64,000 nucleotides of DNA from contig CAIXGR010000077.1 of assembly GCA_903919075.1 (NCBI GenBank), positions 1 to 64,000 of the forward strand, read 5' to 3'. The position numbers and the translations under genes are program-made. Below, one piece after another: positions 2,701 through 63,546 of this stretch (the stretch's first letter is position 1; the number at the start of each line of letters is the position of its first letter). The DNA comes from an uncultured Bacteroidota bacterium. GTDB taxonomy: Bacteria; Bacteroidota; Bacteroidia; Chitinophagales; LD1. The notes under the pieces were generated by a model. It did not search any database and was not told the DNA's origin. It saw only the letters and a list, made by a program, of their open reading frames with translations.

Positions 2701-2742
2701 TACGTTTTTAGCTTAACTAAGTAGCAATAGACTTAAAAAAAC

Positions 2743-2942
2743 ATGGGTTACAGGTTACACTTTAAAAATCAAAACGCTGAAAACCAATTGTTTGCGCTCA
2801 AAAAGTGTTGCCCATTGTAACCCATTCCCCAAATAAGAATTATCAATTTCTTAGTTGGTGCGCTAATCCGTAGTTTTAGTTTAAATTCATACCATAAAAA
2901 TAATATTTATTTATTAAAGATAAAAATTATCTTTTTGTTAAT
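2743..2942. repeat. Miniature inverted-repeat element A
   Basis: The left arm (2743-2763, ATGGGTTACAGGTTACACTTT without its final T) pairs with the right arm (2802-2825), across a loop of about 38 bp. It is followed at 2888-2942 by an AT-rich box ending AGATAAAAATTAT(C)TTTTTGTTAA. The same plan, with a different arm sequence, is seen at 59060-59249. The outer AT box is also shared with the right flank of the ATPase cassette at 41984-42039. No open reading frame is present. Together with the REP-like copy this fills the 480-bp gap between dapB and hmgA, apart from the hmgA promoter. Confidence 0.7.
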
Positions 2943-3091: not shown

Positions 3092-4249
3092 ATGCCTCAT
3101 TATCAAGAAAGAGGGAAAATCCCACACAAACGGCACACCCAATTCCGCAATCCTGAAGGGGGGCTTTATAGCGAGCAATTAGTGTCAACCGAGGGCTTCT
3201 CAAGTGTATCTTCTCTCATCTATCACTGCCATCCGCCTACCGTGGTTATAAAGGTCGACGAAGCCATTGATGTAACTCCGGTTATTGCATCTATGAAAAA
3301 CATGCAACATCGCTGCTATATGGGTTTCAACATAAAGCCTGAAGACGATTTTTTGAAATCGCGCAAACCGATGTTAGTGAACAACGATGTTCATATAGTT
3401 TTGGCGGCCCCGAAAAAATCAATGAAGGATTACTTTTATAAAAACTCTGATGCCGATGAAGTAATTTTTGTGCACGAAGGTACCGGTGTGCTAAAATCAG
3501 TTTTCGGCCAGCTGGAATTTAAGTATGGCGACTACATTGTTATTCCGCGAGGCACTATTTATCAAATTGAATTTGCAGAAGAAAATAACCGCCTCCTCAT
3601 TGTCGAATCTTTTTCGCCGGTGGTTTATCCTAAACGTTATAGAAATGATTTTGGGCAACTGCTTGAACATGCCCCTTACTGTGAGCGCGATATTAAAGCC
3701 CCGCAAAACCTTGTAACTACCGATAAAAAAGGCGATTTTTTAGTATACATTAAAAAACAAGGACTGCTTTACCCATATCATTATGCCTATCATCCTTTCG
3801 ATGCCATAGGTTGGGATGGCTGCCATTATCCGTATATTTTTTCAATACACGATTTTGAACCTATTACCGGCAGGGTGCATCAGCCACCACCGGTGCATCA
3901 AACTTTCGAAGCGCATAATTTTGTAATATGTTCTTTTGTGCCTCGCTTGTACGATTATCATCCGCAAGCTATACCGGCTCCATACAATCACAGTAATGTG
4001 GATAGCGATGAGGTATTATATTATGTAGATGGAGATTTTATGAGCCGTAAACATGTTGAACGCGGTATGATTACGTTGCACCCAATAGGTATACCTCACG
4101 GCCCACACCCAGGAACAGTTGAAAAAAGTATTGGCGCGAAAGAAACAAAAGAGCTGGCCGTAATGGTAGATACCTTTAAACCACTTTGGATAACAAAAGA
4201 AGCGAAAGGAGTGGAGACACCTGATTACTTCGGCTCGTGGATAGAATAA
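3092..4249 (+). CDS. hmgA: Homogentisate 1,2-dioxygenase
   Basis: This Fe(II) ring-cleaving enzyme converts homogentisate to maleylacetoacetate in tyrosine and phenylalanine breakdown. The cupin signature of the family is clear in the C-terminal half. GWDGCHYPYIFSIHDFEP is followed by QPPPVHQTFEAHNFVICSFV, then PYNHSNVDSDEVLYYVDGDF (His300 and Glu307, with Asp306 adjacent), then IGIPHGPHPG (His336). The iron ligands probably come from the last two blocks. The length of 385 residues fits the shorter bacterial form. It is immediately upstream of hpd, and together they carry out two consecutive steps. No fumarylacetoacetase or maleylacetoacetate isomerase is present in the window. Confidence 0.93.
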   Translation: MPHYQERGKIPHKRHTQFRNPEGGLYSEQLVSTEGFSSVSSLIYHCHPPTVVIKVDEAIDVTPVIASMKNMQHRCYMGFNIKPEDDFLKSRKPMLVNNDVHIVLAAPKKSMKDYFYKNSDADEVIFVHEGTGVLKSVFGQLEFKYGDYIVIPRGTIYQIEFAEENNRLLIVESFSPVVYPKRYRNDFGQLLEHAPYCERDIKAPQNLVTTDKKGDFLVYIKKQGLLYPYHYAYHPFDAIGWDGCHYPYIFSIHDFEPITGRVHQPPPVHQTFEAHNFVICSFVPRLYDYHPQAIPAPYNHSNVDSDEVLYYVDGDFMSRKHVERGMITLHPIGIPHGPHPGTVEKSIGAKETKELAVMVDTFKPLWITKEAKGVETPDYFGSWIE

Positions 4250-6654: not shown

Positions 6655-6711
6655 GGTGAGCGAGGTGGGGAGCGGTTCTCCCTTTAGGGAGTTAGGGGGT
6701 AGCGGGAGCTG
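6655..6711. repeat. REP-like palindromic repeat (copy 2)
   Basis: The core palindrome CTCCCTTTAGGGAG (6678-6691) is followed by TTAGGGGGTAGCGGGAGC. The core and tail match the copies at 57965-58017 and 63499-63546. It lies between exbB and exbD, so it would be transcribed as part of the operon mRNA. Confidence 0.7.
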
Positions 6712-33160: not shown

Positions 33161-36100
33161 CTACAGCTTCACCAATTTGCGCGTTACAACTGTAGTTCCC
33201 GAAACAATTCTTAGCAAATAAATACCGTTGGATAGATGGCATGGAATTTCAGAATGAAGTGTTTTTATTTCGCCTTTATATACTATTCTGGCGTTGTCAT
33301 CAAATATTTCAATCTGGCTGCCTAGCAGGCGGCTGCCAACCATTAGCTGCCAATTGCCATTAGAGAGTGGATTAGGGTACACAGAAATATTTTCTTCATC
33401 ATTAATATTTTCAATACCGGTATAAAGTACAGGGCTCGAAGTTGACCTGCAACCATTGGCATCGGTAACTTGAACGGTATAGCTGCCGGTTGTTTGGGCA
33501 ATGTAAGTATTTTGTGTTGCTCCGTCAATAGGGTTATTGTCAATATACCATTGCACGCCTATAGCATTATAGGCCGTAAGCGTATCTCCATTGCGCGAAA
33601 TACTGATGGGCAAAGCTTGAATAATAGCAATGCCTAAGTGATTGGATTCGGCAGTACAGCCATAGTAATCAGATACAGTAACATAATAATTACCTGCATC
33701 TTTTGCTGCAATACACTTCGTAGTTCCATTATTGTTATTCCAGTTGTACGAAATATAATCAACAGTTGTACAGATTCGGGAGCTATCGGAAGAGCATATC
33801 GTATCGTCGCTTGCAGTAATAGTTACTGTAGGTGTTTGGAAAGTTGTAATACCAAGATGGTTTGATTCGGCGGTGCAGCCATGGTTATCTGTAACGGTTA
33901 CATTATAGTTGCCCCCGCTTTTTACTTCAGTGCAGCGTGTGCTGCCTGCACTATTCCAATTGTAGGAAGCAAACCCGGCAGGTGCACATAATTTGGAACT
34001 ATCACCGGTACAAAACGCCAGGTGGTTGGCCGTAATATTTGCTGCCGGTGCCTGTGTTACGGTTATGCCAATGTTGTTGGATTGCGCTGTGCAACCGTAA
34101 TTGTTTGTTGCAATTAAATAGTAACTGCCGGTGGCTTTAGCTTCAATGCAAGTGGTAGTTGCAAAGTTGTTGTTCCAGGTATATGATGCAAAACCAGAAG
34201 GTGCACAAATATGCGCGCTATCGTTGGGGCAAAGTGTATCAGTGTTTGTGGTAATGGTTAGCACGGGCATTTGTATGGCCGTAATACCAATGTGGTTCGA
34301 TTCAACTGTGCAACCGTAGTTATCTGTAGCAGTTAAATAATAGCTACCGGCATTTTTTGTATAGATGCAACTGGACGTATTAAGTATGTTATGCCAGGCA
34401 TATGCAACATAACCTGAAGGTGCACAAATATGTGCGCTGTCGTTAGGGCAAAGTGAATCGGTATTTGCAGTAATGGTTATGGGCTGTGGTTGCGATACGG
34501 TAATATTAATATGGTTCGATTCGGCACTGCAACCATTGTTATCTGTAACAGTTAAATAATAGCTGCCCGAATTTTTTGTATCAATACAATTAGTTGTATT
34601 AATAAGGTTATGCCAACTGTATGTGGCAAAACCACCTGGAGCGCAAATGTGCGCGCTATCTGTACCACAAATGGTATCGGCGTTGGTGGTAATGGTTATT
34701 GCCGCCAGCTGCGTGGCTAAAATATTAATGTGGTTCGATTCGGCACTACAGCCGTTGTTATCGGTTACGGTTAAGTAATAGCTACCGGTATTTTTTATTT
34801 CTATGCAATTTGATGCATTTGAAATATTATGCCAGGTATAAGATGCGAAACCAGCGGGAGCACAAATTTGGGCGCTATCGTTAGCGCAAATTGTATTTAC
34901 ATTGCTGGTAATAGTTACTTGTGGTGCCTGTAAAACAGTAATGCCAATATTATTTGATTGAGCGGTACATCCGTTATTATCAGTTACAATCAGATAATAC
35001 GTACCGGTATCTTTAGCTGCCATACATTGTGTGTTGGAATGGTTACTCCAATTATATAAAGCAAAACCCGAAGGCGCACAAATATTAACGCTATCGTTGC
35101 TGCAAATGGTTGTGGTATTGGCCGATATAGTAGGAGGGCTTGGATGGCAAAGTTGCCCACAGGCAAACCCACCGTAGCACGATGGGTTTAGCACATATCT
35201 CCATATGTCGTTACAATAGCCGCTACTGTTGCGTCCGCCAAACAACCAAAGATTACTGTTTTTATCGGTAAAACTACAAGAGCCAAAGCGGCCCGATGGG
35301 TAGTTTTGGGCGCTCGACATACCTTGGGTGCCAAAGCTACCGGCTGCCGCACCTTCACTTACTTCCATCCATTCTTGTTGGTTGGGTAAAAATCCCCAGA
35401 AATTATTTTGTATATTTCTATTGAACGTACCATAATAACCACCATAGTTAAGAATAAGGTCGTCGCATACTTTCCACACTGCCCTGTTTTCGTAACGGCC
35501 GCTTTCTTCATTGTCGGTATCCGGTACACAATTTACCGAAGCTACATTAACAGTGTCGTTTTGAGGGTTGCCTTTTATTAAAGTCCATTCCAACGACATG
35601 GGGTTGAATTTCCAAACGTCGTTATAGTAATAATTATTATTAGAATTAAAATTTCTGCTTTGTCCCCCAACCAGCCAAAACTGGCCCATACTGTCCTGCC
35701 AATGAAAATTACATTCTCGGGATGACGGATAATAATTCGGTGAAGGCACCCCCACCGGTCCGTATACTCCCATACTTCTACCGGTATCACTACCGCTCAT
35801 CCAGGCCCATTGGTTTAAGTTTATATCATATTTCCACATGTCGTTGTAATCACCCGGATACTGAAACCCCATAGAATCTATAGCGCCATACCCGCCAAAC
35901 ATCCACAAATTGCCAGCGTTATCTACCCAAGATGCATTTCCTTCCTGCCTTACCCCCGGCGAATTTGAAGGGCTTGTTATTCCTTTAGTTCCATAAACAG
36001 GAAAAATGTATGGAAAATTCTGCCCTCCATTCATAAAGGCCCATTGATTACTAACAGGGTCGTATTGCCAAAGGTTATTGCTACTGCTTAAAAGGCCACC

Positions 36101-40260: not shown

Positions 40261-40313
40261 CTGTAACACCTGGCACACCCGGCACAGTTCATAAAGCCGT
40301 TCCACCTGTTCCA
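40261..40313 (+). repeat. Left inverted repeat of the ATPase cassette
   Basis: This 53-bp sequence holds the direct sub-repeats CACCTGGCA and CACCCGGCA and then ACCTGTTCCA. It matches the reverse complement of 41873-41925 with five mismatches. It lies 8 bp beyond the ATPase stop codon. Confidence 0.85.
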
Positions 40314-40321
40314 ATAAATGG

Positions 40322-41341
40322 CTATGTTTTTAGCCCGTTTCTTTTTAATACCCGGTTTACCCTTACGTGGTTAGTGTTTAACTGCCTGGCAATTTCGCGT
40401 TCAGATAGGGTGGGGTTTTCGTTGTAAAGTGTAATAATTTGCGTGTCTAAGCTATCCATTTCATCTTCGGTAAGCCGCCTTAAGTGCAAATGTTCGCTTT
40501 GGGTGTTGTGTGCAACAAAGCGTAAAAAGTTAAAGTTCTTTTCAAGCCCGCATACTATTACGTTATCGGCACCATATATTATTTCGGTGGCCCGTGCTTT
40601 AATTTGCTTAATGTAGCGGGTGTTGGGCAGGGTATAGCTATTGCCCAGTGCAAAAATGCTATCGGCAAAGTTGCCCAGGTGCTTGCTGCCGGCAAGGTCG
40701 TTTATGGTAATGGGGTTAGCGGCATTGCGCTTGGGGGTATGTGCCAGCGCCAGTATTGATAAGCCGTATTTACGCTTTAGGCTGATTAGGGCATTCATTA
40801 AAGGCAGTGCTTCTTTAGCGGTATCGGTACTTTGCGTTTTTAAAAACGTTACGTTATCAATAATCAAAATTTTTGATTGATGTTCGTTCACCGCATGTTC
40901 AATAGCAATAAGCAGTTGGTTTTCGAAATCGCCAATGCCTGCGTATTGGGTATTAATTTCAATACGAATAAAATCGCGGTCGAAAATATAATGGTTACTA
41001 TAGTCGGCCGAGTAGCGTTTTTCGAACTGCTTGGCCGAAAGCTCGAAATCGAAATACAACACCTTTTGCCGTGCAGCTTCAATCGTAAAATAGTTTTCGC
41101 TTTCGCCCTTGCTTATGGCATTGGCCATTTGCACCGCCAGTATTGATTTGCCTAAGTTGGTATCGGCAAATAAAAAGCACAATTCGCCTTCATGCCACAG
41201 CTCGCCAAAAAGCATTTTAGGCACCGGGCATTTTTTAGCTTCTTCCATCCATTGGTTAGCGGTTTTAATGTTGAACATATTTTTTTCATCATCCTTAAAA
41301 TTGGTTTGTTGAAGAATAATTTGGGCAATGCTGTCATTCAT
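40322..41341 (-). CDS. RecA/RepA-like AAA ATPase with C-terminal HTH
   Basis: This 339-residue ATPase is of the RepA/AAA_25 (RecA-fold) type. The P-loop is FLFADTNLGKSILAVQMAN (Gly64-Lys65-Ser66). A YFDFELS block (96-102) follows, then Walker B KILIIDNVTF (157-166), then ALAHTPKR (198-205) and DLAGSKHLGNFADSIFALG (215-233). A helix-turn-helix (about 311-335, LSEREIARQLNTNHVRVNRV) closes the protein. Plasmid RepA hexamers share this core, but there is no primase or origin-binding partner here. Its start overlaps the stop of the coiled-coil gene by 4 bp. It probably binds DNA, perhaps at the flanking repeats. Confidence 0.85.
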   Translation of the reverse strand: MNDSIAQIILQQTNFKDDEKNMFNIKTANQWMEEAKKCPVPKMLFGELWHEGELCFLFADTNLGKSILAVQMANAISKGESENYFTIEAARQKVLYFDFELSAKQFEKRYSADYSNHYIFDRDFIRIEINTQYAGIGDFENQLLIAIEHAVNEHQSKILIIDNVTFLKTQSTDTAKEALPLMNALISLKRKYGLSILALAHTPKRNAANPITINDLAGSKHLGNFADSIFALGNSYTLPNTRYIKQIKARATEIIYGADNVIVCGLEKNFNFLRFVAHNTQSEHLHLRRLTEDEMDSLDTQIITLYNENPTLSEREIARQLNTNHVRVNRVLKRNGLKT

Positions 41342-41775
41342 AGTTTGGGGTTTTTATGGTTTGGGTTTATTTTATTTTCTATCATTTCATGCAAAAACAG
41401 GCCATTATCAATAGCCGCATGCATGCAAAATTGCAACTCGGCAACCTGCTGGTTTAAGTGCTGTATTTGGTAAAGCATTTGGTGGTAGTTTTCGGTATTG
41501 GGTATACCGGTGTTATCAGGCGGGGTTTCGTAGTGTTTTTGCAGCTCTATTATATATTGTTCAAAATCGTAAAGCAGTTGCAGCTCTTCAGTAAGCCGGT
41601 GCATTAGTTTTTGCAGCTTCAGGGCTTCGGCTATGGGCATGGCAAATAAATCTTTTTGCTCCAATGCGTTTAAATGCCTGGCCTTATCTACTATCAACCT
41701 GTGAAAACCCGCCATTTTATTTTGATGCAGGTATTGCCAAAAGCCAGGTTGGTTATATGATTTTGGATAAGACAT
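41338..41775 (-). CDS. Small helical/coiled-coil partner of the ATPase
   Basis: This 145-residue protein is not recognised as any family. It is almost entirely helical: residues about 15-75 (KMAGFHRLIVDKARHLNALE and IAEALKLQKLMHRLTEELQL) and about 95-130 (YHQMLYQIQHLNQQVAELQF) look like coiled coils. It has no signal peptide, membrane segment or zinc motif. Translation is coupled to the ATPase by a 4-bp stop/start overlap, so the two products are likely to work together, for example as loader and regulator. The upstream leader contains a strong stem-loop and the right inverted repeat. Confidence 0.75.
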   Translation of the reverse strand: MSYPKSYNQPGFWQYLHQNKMAGFHRLIVDKARHLNALEQKDLFAMPIAEALKLQKLMHRLTEELQLLYDFEQYIIELQKHYETPPDNTGIPNTENYHQMLYQIQHLNQQVAELQFCMHAAIDNGLFLHEMIENKINPNHKNPKL

Positions 41776-41843: not shown

Positions 41844-41872
41844 TAAGTATAAAACAGTAAATAGTGCTTAAG

Positions 41873-41925
41873 TGGAACAGGTGGCAAGGCTGTATCAACT
41901 GTGCCAGGTGTGCCAGGTGTTACAG
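41873..41925 (-). repeat. Right inverted repeat of the ATPase cassette
   Basis: This is the mate of 40261-40313. The sub-repeat TGTGCCAGG occurs twice in a row in slightly different phase (CTGTGCCAGG and TGTGCCAGG), so the arm is itself iteron-like. It lies about 98 bp upstream of the first cassette gene. Confidence 0.85.
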
Positions 41926-41983: not shown

Positions 41984-42039
41984 CATAATACAAAAATACT
42001 AAATTTATTTTTTATAGATAAAAATTATTATTTTGTTAA
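41984..42039. repeat. AT-rich outer box flanking the cassette
   Basis: CATAATACAAAAATACTAAA leads into ATAGATAAAAATTATTATTTTGTTAA. The same ordered words are found at 2888-2942 and 59195-59249, always to the right of the paired arms. Read on the minus strand it contains TATTTTTG, a possible -7 promoter element facing the cassette operon. Confidence 0.6.
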
Positions 42040-42088
42040 GTAGTGATTATACTTTAAAAACTGTTGGCGTTTTCAGTTGCTGCTTCCC

Positions 42089-42215
42089 GGTGCCTCACCC
42101 CGTCTCGCTTCACTTGCCACCCCTCTCCACTTTGTGGAGAAGGGAATACAACGGCTGTTTCCTTATCCATGCAATGGAGAGGGTGGCCGCGCGTAGCAAG
42201 GCCGGGTGAGGCCAC
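42089..42215. repeat. REP-like palindromic repeat (copy 4)
   Basis: GTGCCTCACCCCGTCTCGC begins the copy. It contains the hairpin TCTCCACTTTGTGGAGA, then ATGGAGAGGGTGGCC and GCCGGGTGAGGCC. A 22-bp piece (42090-42111) recurs inverted and identical at 63426-63447. An open frame runs through it into the sensor kinase gene, but the peptide it would encode has no kinase-like features. Along with the cassette leader, the right arm and the AT box, it accounts for the 520-bp gap before 42298. Confidence 0.7.
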
Positions 42216-57964: not shown

Positions 57965-58017
57965 GCAGGGGGGCGGTCCTCCCTTTAGGGAGCCAGAGGG
58001 TGCGCGCAGGCAGCAAA
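57965..58017. repeat. REP-like palindromic repeat (copy 5) at a gene 5' end
   Basis: TCCTCCCTTTAGGGAGCC followed by AGAGGGTGCGCGCAGGCAGC. It matches the copy at 63499 in core and tail. It sits between the receptor stop and the likely GTG start of the DUF4249 lipoprotein gene. Confidence 0.75.
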
Positions 58018-59059: not shown

Positions 59060-59249
59060 AAGGGGGTAACACTTTAAAAGTTAAAGTATTGAATATTAAT
59101 TTTTTGCAAAATAAAAGTGTAACCACCTGTAACCCCCTTTGAACCCTGATTGGCGCGGGCATTAGGCATTTCTCATTTGGCTAATAATTATATACATACT
59201 GCAAAATAGTATTTATTTATTTGAGATAAAAATTATTTTTTTGATAATT
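59060..59249. repeat. Miniature inverted-repeat element B
   Basis: The left arm AAGGGGGTAACACTTT (59060-59075) pairs with the right arm (59114-59140, AAAGTGTAACCACCTGTAAC and then CCCCTTT). The AT box GAGATAAAAATTATTTTTTT follows at about 59195-59249. A 67-bp stretch (59069-59135) aligns without gaps to 2757-2823 of element A at 47 of 67 positions. Like A it contains no gene. It fills most of the 288-bp gap after the DUF4249 gene. Confidence 0.7.
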
Positions 59250-59310
59250 ATGAAATTGCCTTTAAAAAAAGACTTATAAGAAATTGAAGAAAAGACTTGC
59301 TTTTTTACAC

Positions 59311-63425: not shown

Positions 63426-63447
63426 GAAGCGAGACGGGGTGAGGCAC
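63426..63447. repeat. REP-like repeat fragment (copy 7)
   Basis: A 22-bp fragment containing GCGAGACGGGGTGAGGCAC is an exact inverted copy of 42090-42111. It lies 36 bp after trxB. Confidence 0.7.
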
Positions 63448-63498
63448 TGGGGAAAATTGCTTACAGCGAAGGAATATAGATAGTGTGAGTGAAGCATG

Positions 63499-63546
63499 GG
63501 GGAGGTCCTCTCTTTAGGGAGTTAGAGGGTGCAGGCAGGCATTGCC
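63499..63546. repeat. REP-like palindromic repeat (copy 8)
   Basis: GGAGGTCCTCTCTTTAGGGA then GTTAGAGGGTGCAGGCAGGC. It is the closest relative of copy 5 and also similar to copy 2. It fills the spacer between trxB and the START-domain gene. Confidence 0.75.

Follow-up and report, generated by a model that had tools for sequence, protein, structure and literature searches.

A dispersed hairpin element beside dapB in an uncultured member of the Bacteroidota and its relatives with helix-turn-helix genes

MITEs such as those of Porphyromonas gingivalis are one of several described systems that come close to the element found between dapB and hmgA in the present window, the whole stretch of 64,000 nucleotides that was analysed. 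Like them, this mini-element is short, non-coding and dispersed, and has fuller, gene-bearing copies beside it. Unlike them, it lacks terminal inverted repeats: its repeats form an internal hairpin, and the sequence of the hairpin end does not recur in inverse orientation at the end that carries an AT-rich box. No autonomous relative with a transposase was found, the fuller copies encoding a helix-turn-helix (HTH) protein only. REP sequences are defined as palindromes of 20-40 bp with a GTAG or CGTC tag, and CGTC repeats apparently have no dedicated transposase (PMC3733652). The GTAG and CGTC families of the REP/RAYT system resemble the mini-element as dispersed intergenic hairpins, but the mini-element is longer, has a promoter-like box and, in fuller copies, an HTH gene, and shows no GTAG or CGTC tag in the alignment.

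Iterons and the AAA-DUF6371 module of Tn4555/NBU elements share with it tandem repeats of variable core beside a gene for an HTH protein; the mini-element differs in its arm unit, its fixed loop of about 38 nt with a TTGATTATCAA core and its solitary position. Integron attC sites, with their core consensus of RYYYAAC / GTTRRRY boxes, are likewise strand-specific hairpins with one-sided extrahelical bases, situated past a gene. No cassette array was seen here, however, and the 3' arms of the mini-element (TGTAACC) do not fit RYYYAAC. Searches of the open-licence literature found no title or abstract describing a family with box, HTH gene and hairpin, the mini-element had no match above chance in Rfam, and a search of a defence-system library gave nothing meaningful. 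The copy beside dapB is probably a solo-hairpin, non-autonomous, MITE-like member of a dispersed family built of a promoter-like box, in fuller copies a leader and a winged-HTH gene, and a hairpin.

Anatomy of the copy beside dapB

The functional strand of the window copy appears to be the minus strand, on which an AT-rich box, a spacer of about 53 nt, an 84-nt hairpin and a run of seven T follow one another from 2942 to 2735. The box (2880..2942), of type 1 and promoter-like, reads TATTTTTA in the window copy and TATTTTTG in other copies, close to TAnnTTTG. The spacer (2827..2879) leads to the hairpin (2743..2826), which has 21 pairs and scored 85.6 bits (E 1.7e-14) with covariance model R1. 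Its arms each consist of two tandem units: an outer 5' arm with the unit GGGTTACA (2816..2825) is separated by a 3-nt bulge, present on one arm side only (2813..2815; ATG here, usually AYG or TGG elsewhere), from an inner 5' arm (2802..2812; GGCAACACTTT, decayed GGTTACACTTT). A 38-nt loop with a core similar to ATTGATTATCAAT (2764..2801) and a 3' arm consisting of AAAGTGTAACC and then TGTAACCCAT (2743..2763) complete the structure, and the T run follows immediately (2735..2741). Such a run was present after the hairpin in a minority of copies, about a quarter. The region 2735-2945 folded with -41.7 kcal/mol (z = -3.8), and none of 200 shuffled sequences did as well. Downstream, on the same strand, lies dapB; hmgA is divergent and starts at 3092.

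The paired arms, the loop of about 38 nt and the shared AT-rich box that a preliminary description had placed at 2743-2942 were thus all present. Its statement that the interior holds no gene was right for this copy, but two other copies each carry one. A second, degraded hairpin copy lies at 59060..59139 on the minus strand; on its own its fold was not significant (z = -0.09), despite a covariance-model match of 52.7 bits. Its type 1 box (59203..59265, minus strand) was 81% identical over 63 nt. The type 1 pattern occurred at three sites in the window (2904, 42002 and 59210), where none was expected.

Copies, boxes and arm types in the host genome

The host genome (3.53 Mb, 97 contigs), assigned to Bacteroidota by its gene content and by the relatives of its AAA gene, gave 51 blast matches to the mini-element. 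Covariance model R1, built from 19 hairpins, found about 42 loci with both strands merged, and overall about 40 copies can be counted. They are intergenic with one exception (contig C27), which overlaps a predicted ORF on the opposite strand. Among 39 relatives, 17 of them of the same genus, hits were obtained in one same-genus genome only (G013), where they were weak and had other arm sequences; the mini-element thus appears nearly restricted to one species. The preliminary description had named an absence of further genomic copies, or a strictly conserved place beside dapB, as observations that would refute its reading. The many scattered copies rule out the former, and the latter does not hold either, as relatives lack the element and copies stand beside unrelated genes. 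Among the same-genus relatives examined, dapB and hmgA were adjacent in a single genome, G007, which has no element.

Two types of box precede hairpins across the host genome. Every match of the type 1 pattern (8 of 8) and of the type 2 pattern (TTTAGCTAATTTTGTTATATTTG; 22 of 22) had a hairpin downstream of it on its own strand, and reversed box patterns, used as a control, gave no match. One further type 1-like blast match, on contig C34, has no hairpin and stands ahead of an ordinary gene whose sequence is metallo-beta-lactamase-like. Both types contain TAnnTTTG, the -7 promoter element of Bacteroidetes, and no clear -33 element was seen at either. The promoter role of the boxes is accordingly putative.

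The arms are built mainly from the units GGGTTACA (type A) and GGTTGACA (type B), with GTAACA and GTTAACA as minor types; type B copies outnumber type A copies. Both main arm types were found with both box types, the rough automatic box labels having been checked by eye, and box and arms therefore look like exchangeable modules. All four arm units could be read in 31 copies and were identical in 23; in none of these 31 did GTTACA and GTTGACA occur together. Four pairs differ on both sides between types A and B (32 cells), the compensatory changes that the preliminary description had proposed to look for in the arms. Shuffles averaged a covariation of 0.113; the observed value, 0.229, was reached by none of 500 shuffles and collapsed when the alignment was slid by one column; the copies share descent, so these pair changes are not independent events. 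Among non-Watson-Crick cells, 28 were G-U and 7 A-C (20 and 2 with the outermost pair dropped). Because the arms co-vary and G-U is favoured over A-C, it is the box-to-hairpin strand that folds, as RNA or as single-stranded DNA; covariation and G-U bias fit both alike.

Inner and outer arm units agree within copies beyond what base pairing alone requires. Either descent or a protein that recognises the unit would account for this agreement, and recognition of the arms by the HTH protein would be the most economical reason for the coordinated unit changes. One chimeric hairpin (C95:3185-3268), with GTAACA units in the 5' arm and GTTGACA (type B) units in the 3' arm, was counted against our preferred explanation. 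In many type B copies (for example C7:74016, C29:60115, C27:16292 and C89:23248), about 25 nt, a second TTATTGATAATGAATTTATTG-like core and a single GGGTTGACAGT half-site follow the hairpin; this continuation is possibly the true right end of the element.

Fuller members and the AAA cassette

In two copies (C16 and C4) a type 2 box and a hairpin are about 480 nt apart and enclose an HTH ORF of about 136 amino acids, which ends just ahead of the hairpin. The C4 ORF is broken by an in-frame TAG. The only intact HTH gene found, that of C16, goes with type A arms and not with the commoner type B, and this too was counted against our explanation. A solo copy on C64 retains the leader GCGTTTAAATTGCC and the start region, followed by the hairpin; it looks like a deletion intermediate, as expected for a deletion derivative. 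The predicted model of the HTH protein is a winged HTH with helical flanks (mean pLDDT 71). Foldseek returned HTH domains only, with LexA domains on top and none at E <= 0.001, and a full-length homologue searched against phages gave no match. The HTH region is distantly similar to phage terminase small subunits (phrog_24579) and to phBC6A51-type HTH proteins.

Homologues of the HTH protein are present in five relatives (G006, G008, G011, G012 and G013), some of them similar to phage terminase small subunits; most of the hairpin-adjacent homologues are extended at both the N and the C terminus, unlike the terminase-like ones. About six homologues outside the host genome, in others of the same genus, have a related hairpin with arms of its own 4-35 nt past the stop codon; these hairpins were partly judged by eye, and in a few cases shuffled sequences reached their score. 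A generic hairpin alignment across species was poor and was left out of model building. In G013, GGTGGTCA...TGACCACC occurs at four sites, two after an HTH gene and two solo, and is absent from G006, G011 and G012. The pairing of gene-bearing and solo copies thus recurs in a second species with other arms. A scan for hairpins with a TTGAT core found five at HTH loci and none at AAA loci; it is weak alone, since hmgA control loci gave four by chance.

The window itself contains a gene pair (40322-41775, minus strand) that shares a type 1 box and the arm style with the mini-element. The box (41995..42057; 70% identity over 63 nt) and an arm with the repeats TGTAACACC, TGGCACACC and TGGCACAG (41861..41925) precede ORF1 (41338..41775), of 145 amino acids and without confident family assignment; in locus L084, too, the AAA gene is preceded by an ORF of similar appearance. 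The second gene (40322..41341) encodes an AAA_25/DnaB-like ATPase of 339 amino acids (PF13481, E 1.2e-19) with a C-terminal HTH, for which matches were weak. Past it stands an arm (40261..40325) that is 85% complementary to the upstream one. All these features are on the minus strand. The preliminary description had derived the mini-element from this cassette, its gene pair being replaced by a short loop. This did not hold up: the box-HTH gene-hairpin copies on C16 and C4 are the better full-length counterpart, and the repeat unit of the cassette is TGGCACA, against GTTACA or GTTGACA in the mini-elements. The different unit, together with the single copy of the AAA gene in the host genome, rules the cassette out as a direct parent. 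It is best read as a relative in design, a parallel branch with an ATPase with a C-terminal HTH between such repeats.

For the cassette itself, kinship with the AAA-DUF6371 region of Tn4555-type mobilizable elements is likely. In nine other genomes, AAA relatives mostly have TGNNACA or GTGAACA repeats past the gene, often also before it. The Bacteroides plasmid record CP103138.1 contains an element that bears cfxA, an integrase gene and mobilization genes and that we take to be Tn4555-like. There (L167:1000-1085), three TGTCCCA face three TGGGACA in a palindrome at the end of the AAA gene, directly ahead of the DUF6371 gene. Within one genus the recognition helices TTVHRYL, TTVARYL and STVNRYL go with the repeats TGGAACA, TGGTACA and TGGGACA, respectively, and the STVNR of the Tn4555-like element is likewise paired with TGGGACA. 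A Mantel test over 15 hand-aligned sequences of the AAA branch showed that the repeat varies with the helix (r 0.34, p 0.0007; partial p 0.036). On the side of the mini-element's HTH gene, suggestive examples of such a correspondence were seen by eye. In another genus (L087, genome G023), the AAA gene and its repeats are followed, after about 200 nt, by a RAYT-like Y1 ORF.

Mobility and competing readings

In the proposed MITE-like family, the box would start transcription, the HTH protein would recognise the arm repeats, and copies with the same arm type would be acted on in trans. Spreading would rely on an enzyme other than the encoded protein, because the latter shows an HTH fold only. No recombinase could be linked to the family. 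Target duplications, which the preliminary description had suggested looking for, were not found: words shared by the two ends did not exceed in length those of permuted pairs (the observed mean was reached in 81 of 300 permutations; the exact element boundaries are uncertain). No empty site was found either, G007, the sole relative with dapB next to hmgA, being too diverged to align. For want of these three marks, mobility is inferred. The earlier label of a non-autonomous, MITE-like derivative agrees with about 40 intergenic copies nearly confined to one species, the lack of a conserved position beside dapB and the gene-bearing relatives.

The main rival treats the loci as genes for small structured RNAs of one family, with the box as promoter, the hairpin as the RNA, a terminator in some copies and a dispersal that is secondary or ancient. 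The constant box-to-hairpin orientation in all pattern matches, the compensatory pairs and the G-U bias on the box strand, the T7 run past the window copy and the same-strand gene at which 30 of 40 copies point are all in line with it. A structured RNA with an upstream promoter box, the alternative offered in the preliminary description, is supported in part by the pairs and the G-U bias. We consider RNA genes unlikely nonetheless, in view of the missing Rfam match, a T run in about a quarter of copies only, the joint change of inner and outer units that pairing does not demand, the near confinement to one species and the two copies with an HTH gene between box and hairpin. The shared orientation of mini-element and downstream gene, seen in 30 of 40 cases, leaves room for a regulatory role of the mini-elements. 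A conserved local feature such as a cis-regulatory leader of dapB would agree with the place of the hairpin, which precedes dapB on its strand, but is scarcely credible with some 40 copies by unrelated genes and relatives devoid of the element; as a conserved dapB element it is refuted, neither adjacency nor element being conserved.

The hairpins might also be replication-origin or iteron sites left by Tn4555/NBU-type mobilizable elements, with arms that bind an AAA/HTH replication protein and a hairpin that serves as initiation site. Palindromic repeats of similar form do occur directly past AAA genes in Tn4555-like elements and in relatives, with a recognition helix that varies along with the repeat. 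Such an origin is nevertheless improbable, given the GTTACA or GTTGACA units of the mini-elements versus TGGCACA in the genome's only AAA cassette, the absence of the TTGATTATCAA loop from AAA-locus hairpins (0 hits) and the solitary, intergenic position of the mini-elements. Still less probable are REP/BIME-like repeats moved by a REP-associated tyrosine (Y1/HUH) transposase. Although the mini-elements, like REPs, are bulged, dispersed, intergenic and species-specific hairpins, and one copy on contig C22 has a Y1 gene at a distance of 2 kb, this only Y1 gene of the genome is flanked by unrelated palindromes of its own (GCTCGTCCTCGTC...) and not by mini hairpins. REPs moreover have neither promoter box nor HTH gene, and the mini hairpin measures 84 nt with a 38-nt loop, versus 20-40 nt. 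A RAYT/REP origin is therefore largely ruled out, the host Y1 gene being tied to other palindromes.

More tentatively than the MITE-like assignment, we propose that these loci may represent a new class of self-recognising dispersed elements in Bacteroidota, in which an HTH protein, either a small winged HTH or an AAA-ATPase-HTH, would read the variable core of the adjacent hairpin repeats with its recognition helix, specificities would diversify from element to element and from genome to genome, and solo hairpins would multiply in trans with no known recombinase. If this were true, a recognition code between HTH protein and hairpin repeat could be traced across the mobile DNA of Bacteroidota, Tn4555-like elements included, and the spreading of a dispersed repeat family would fit no known transposase class. 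The arms, HTH genes and solo copies would lend themselves directly to tests of specificity and of recognition of RNA versus single-stranded DNA.

Some other repeats were seen as well. The genome's single REP-associated Y1 gene (L132:1228-1785, on C22 near 80 kb) forms with its own palindromes a separate REP-like system. In the window, another dispersed intergenic repeat (GGGGAGCGGTTCTCCCTTTAGGGAGTTAGGGGGT) occurs at 6667-6700, 57968-58001 and 63497-63530, and similar stretches flank several hairpin copies. A repeat of about 208 nt is present five times at 33618-34917, four times at a spacing of 219 nt, the copies being 63-75% alike. Finally, a near-identical 26-nt inverted repeat (CCCGGTGCCTCACCCCGTCTCGCTTC) lies at 42086-42111 and 63426-63451, with related stretches near several copies of the element.
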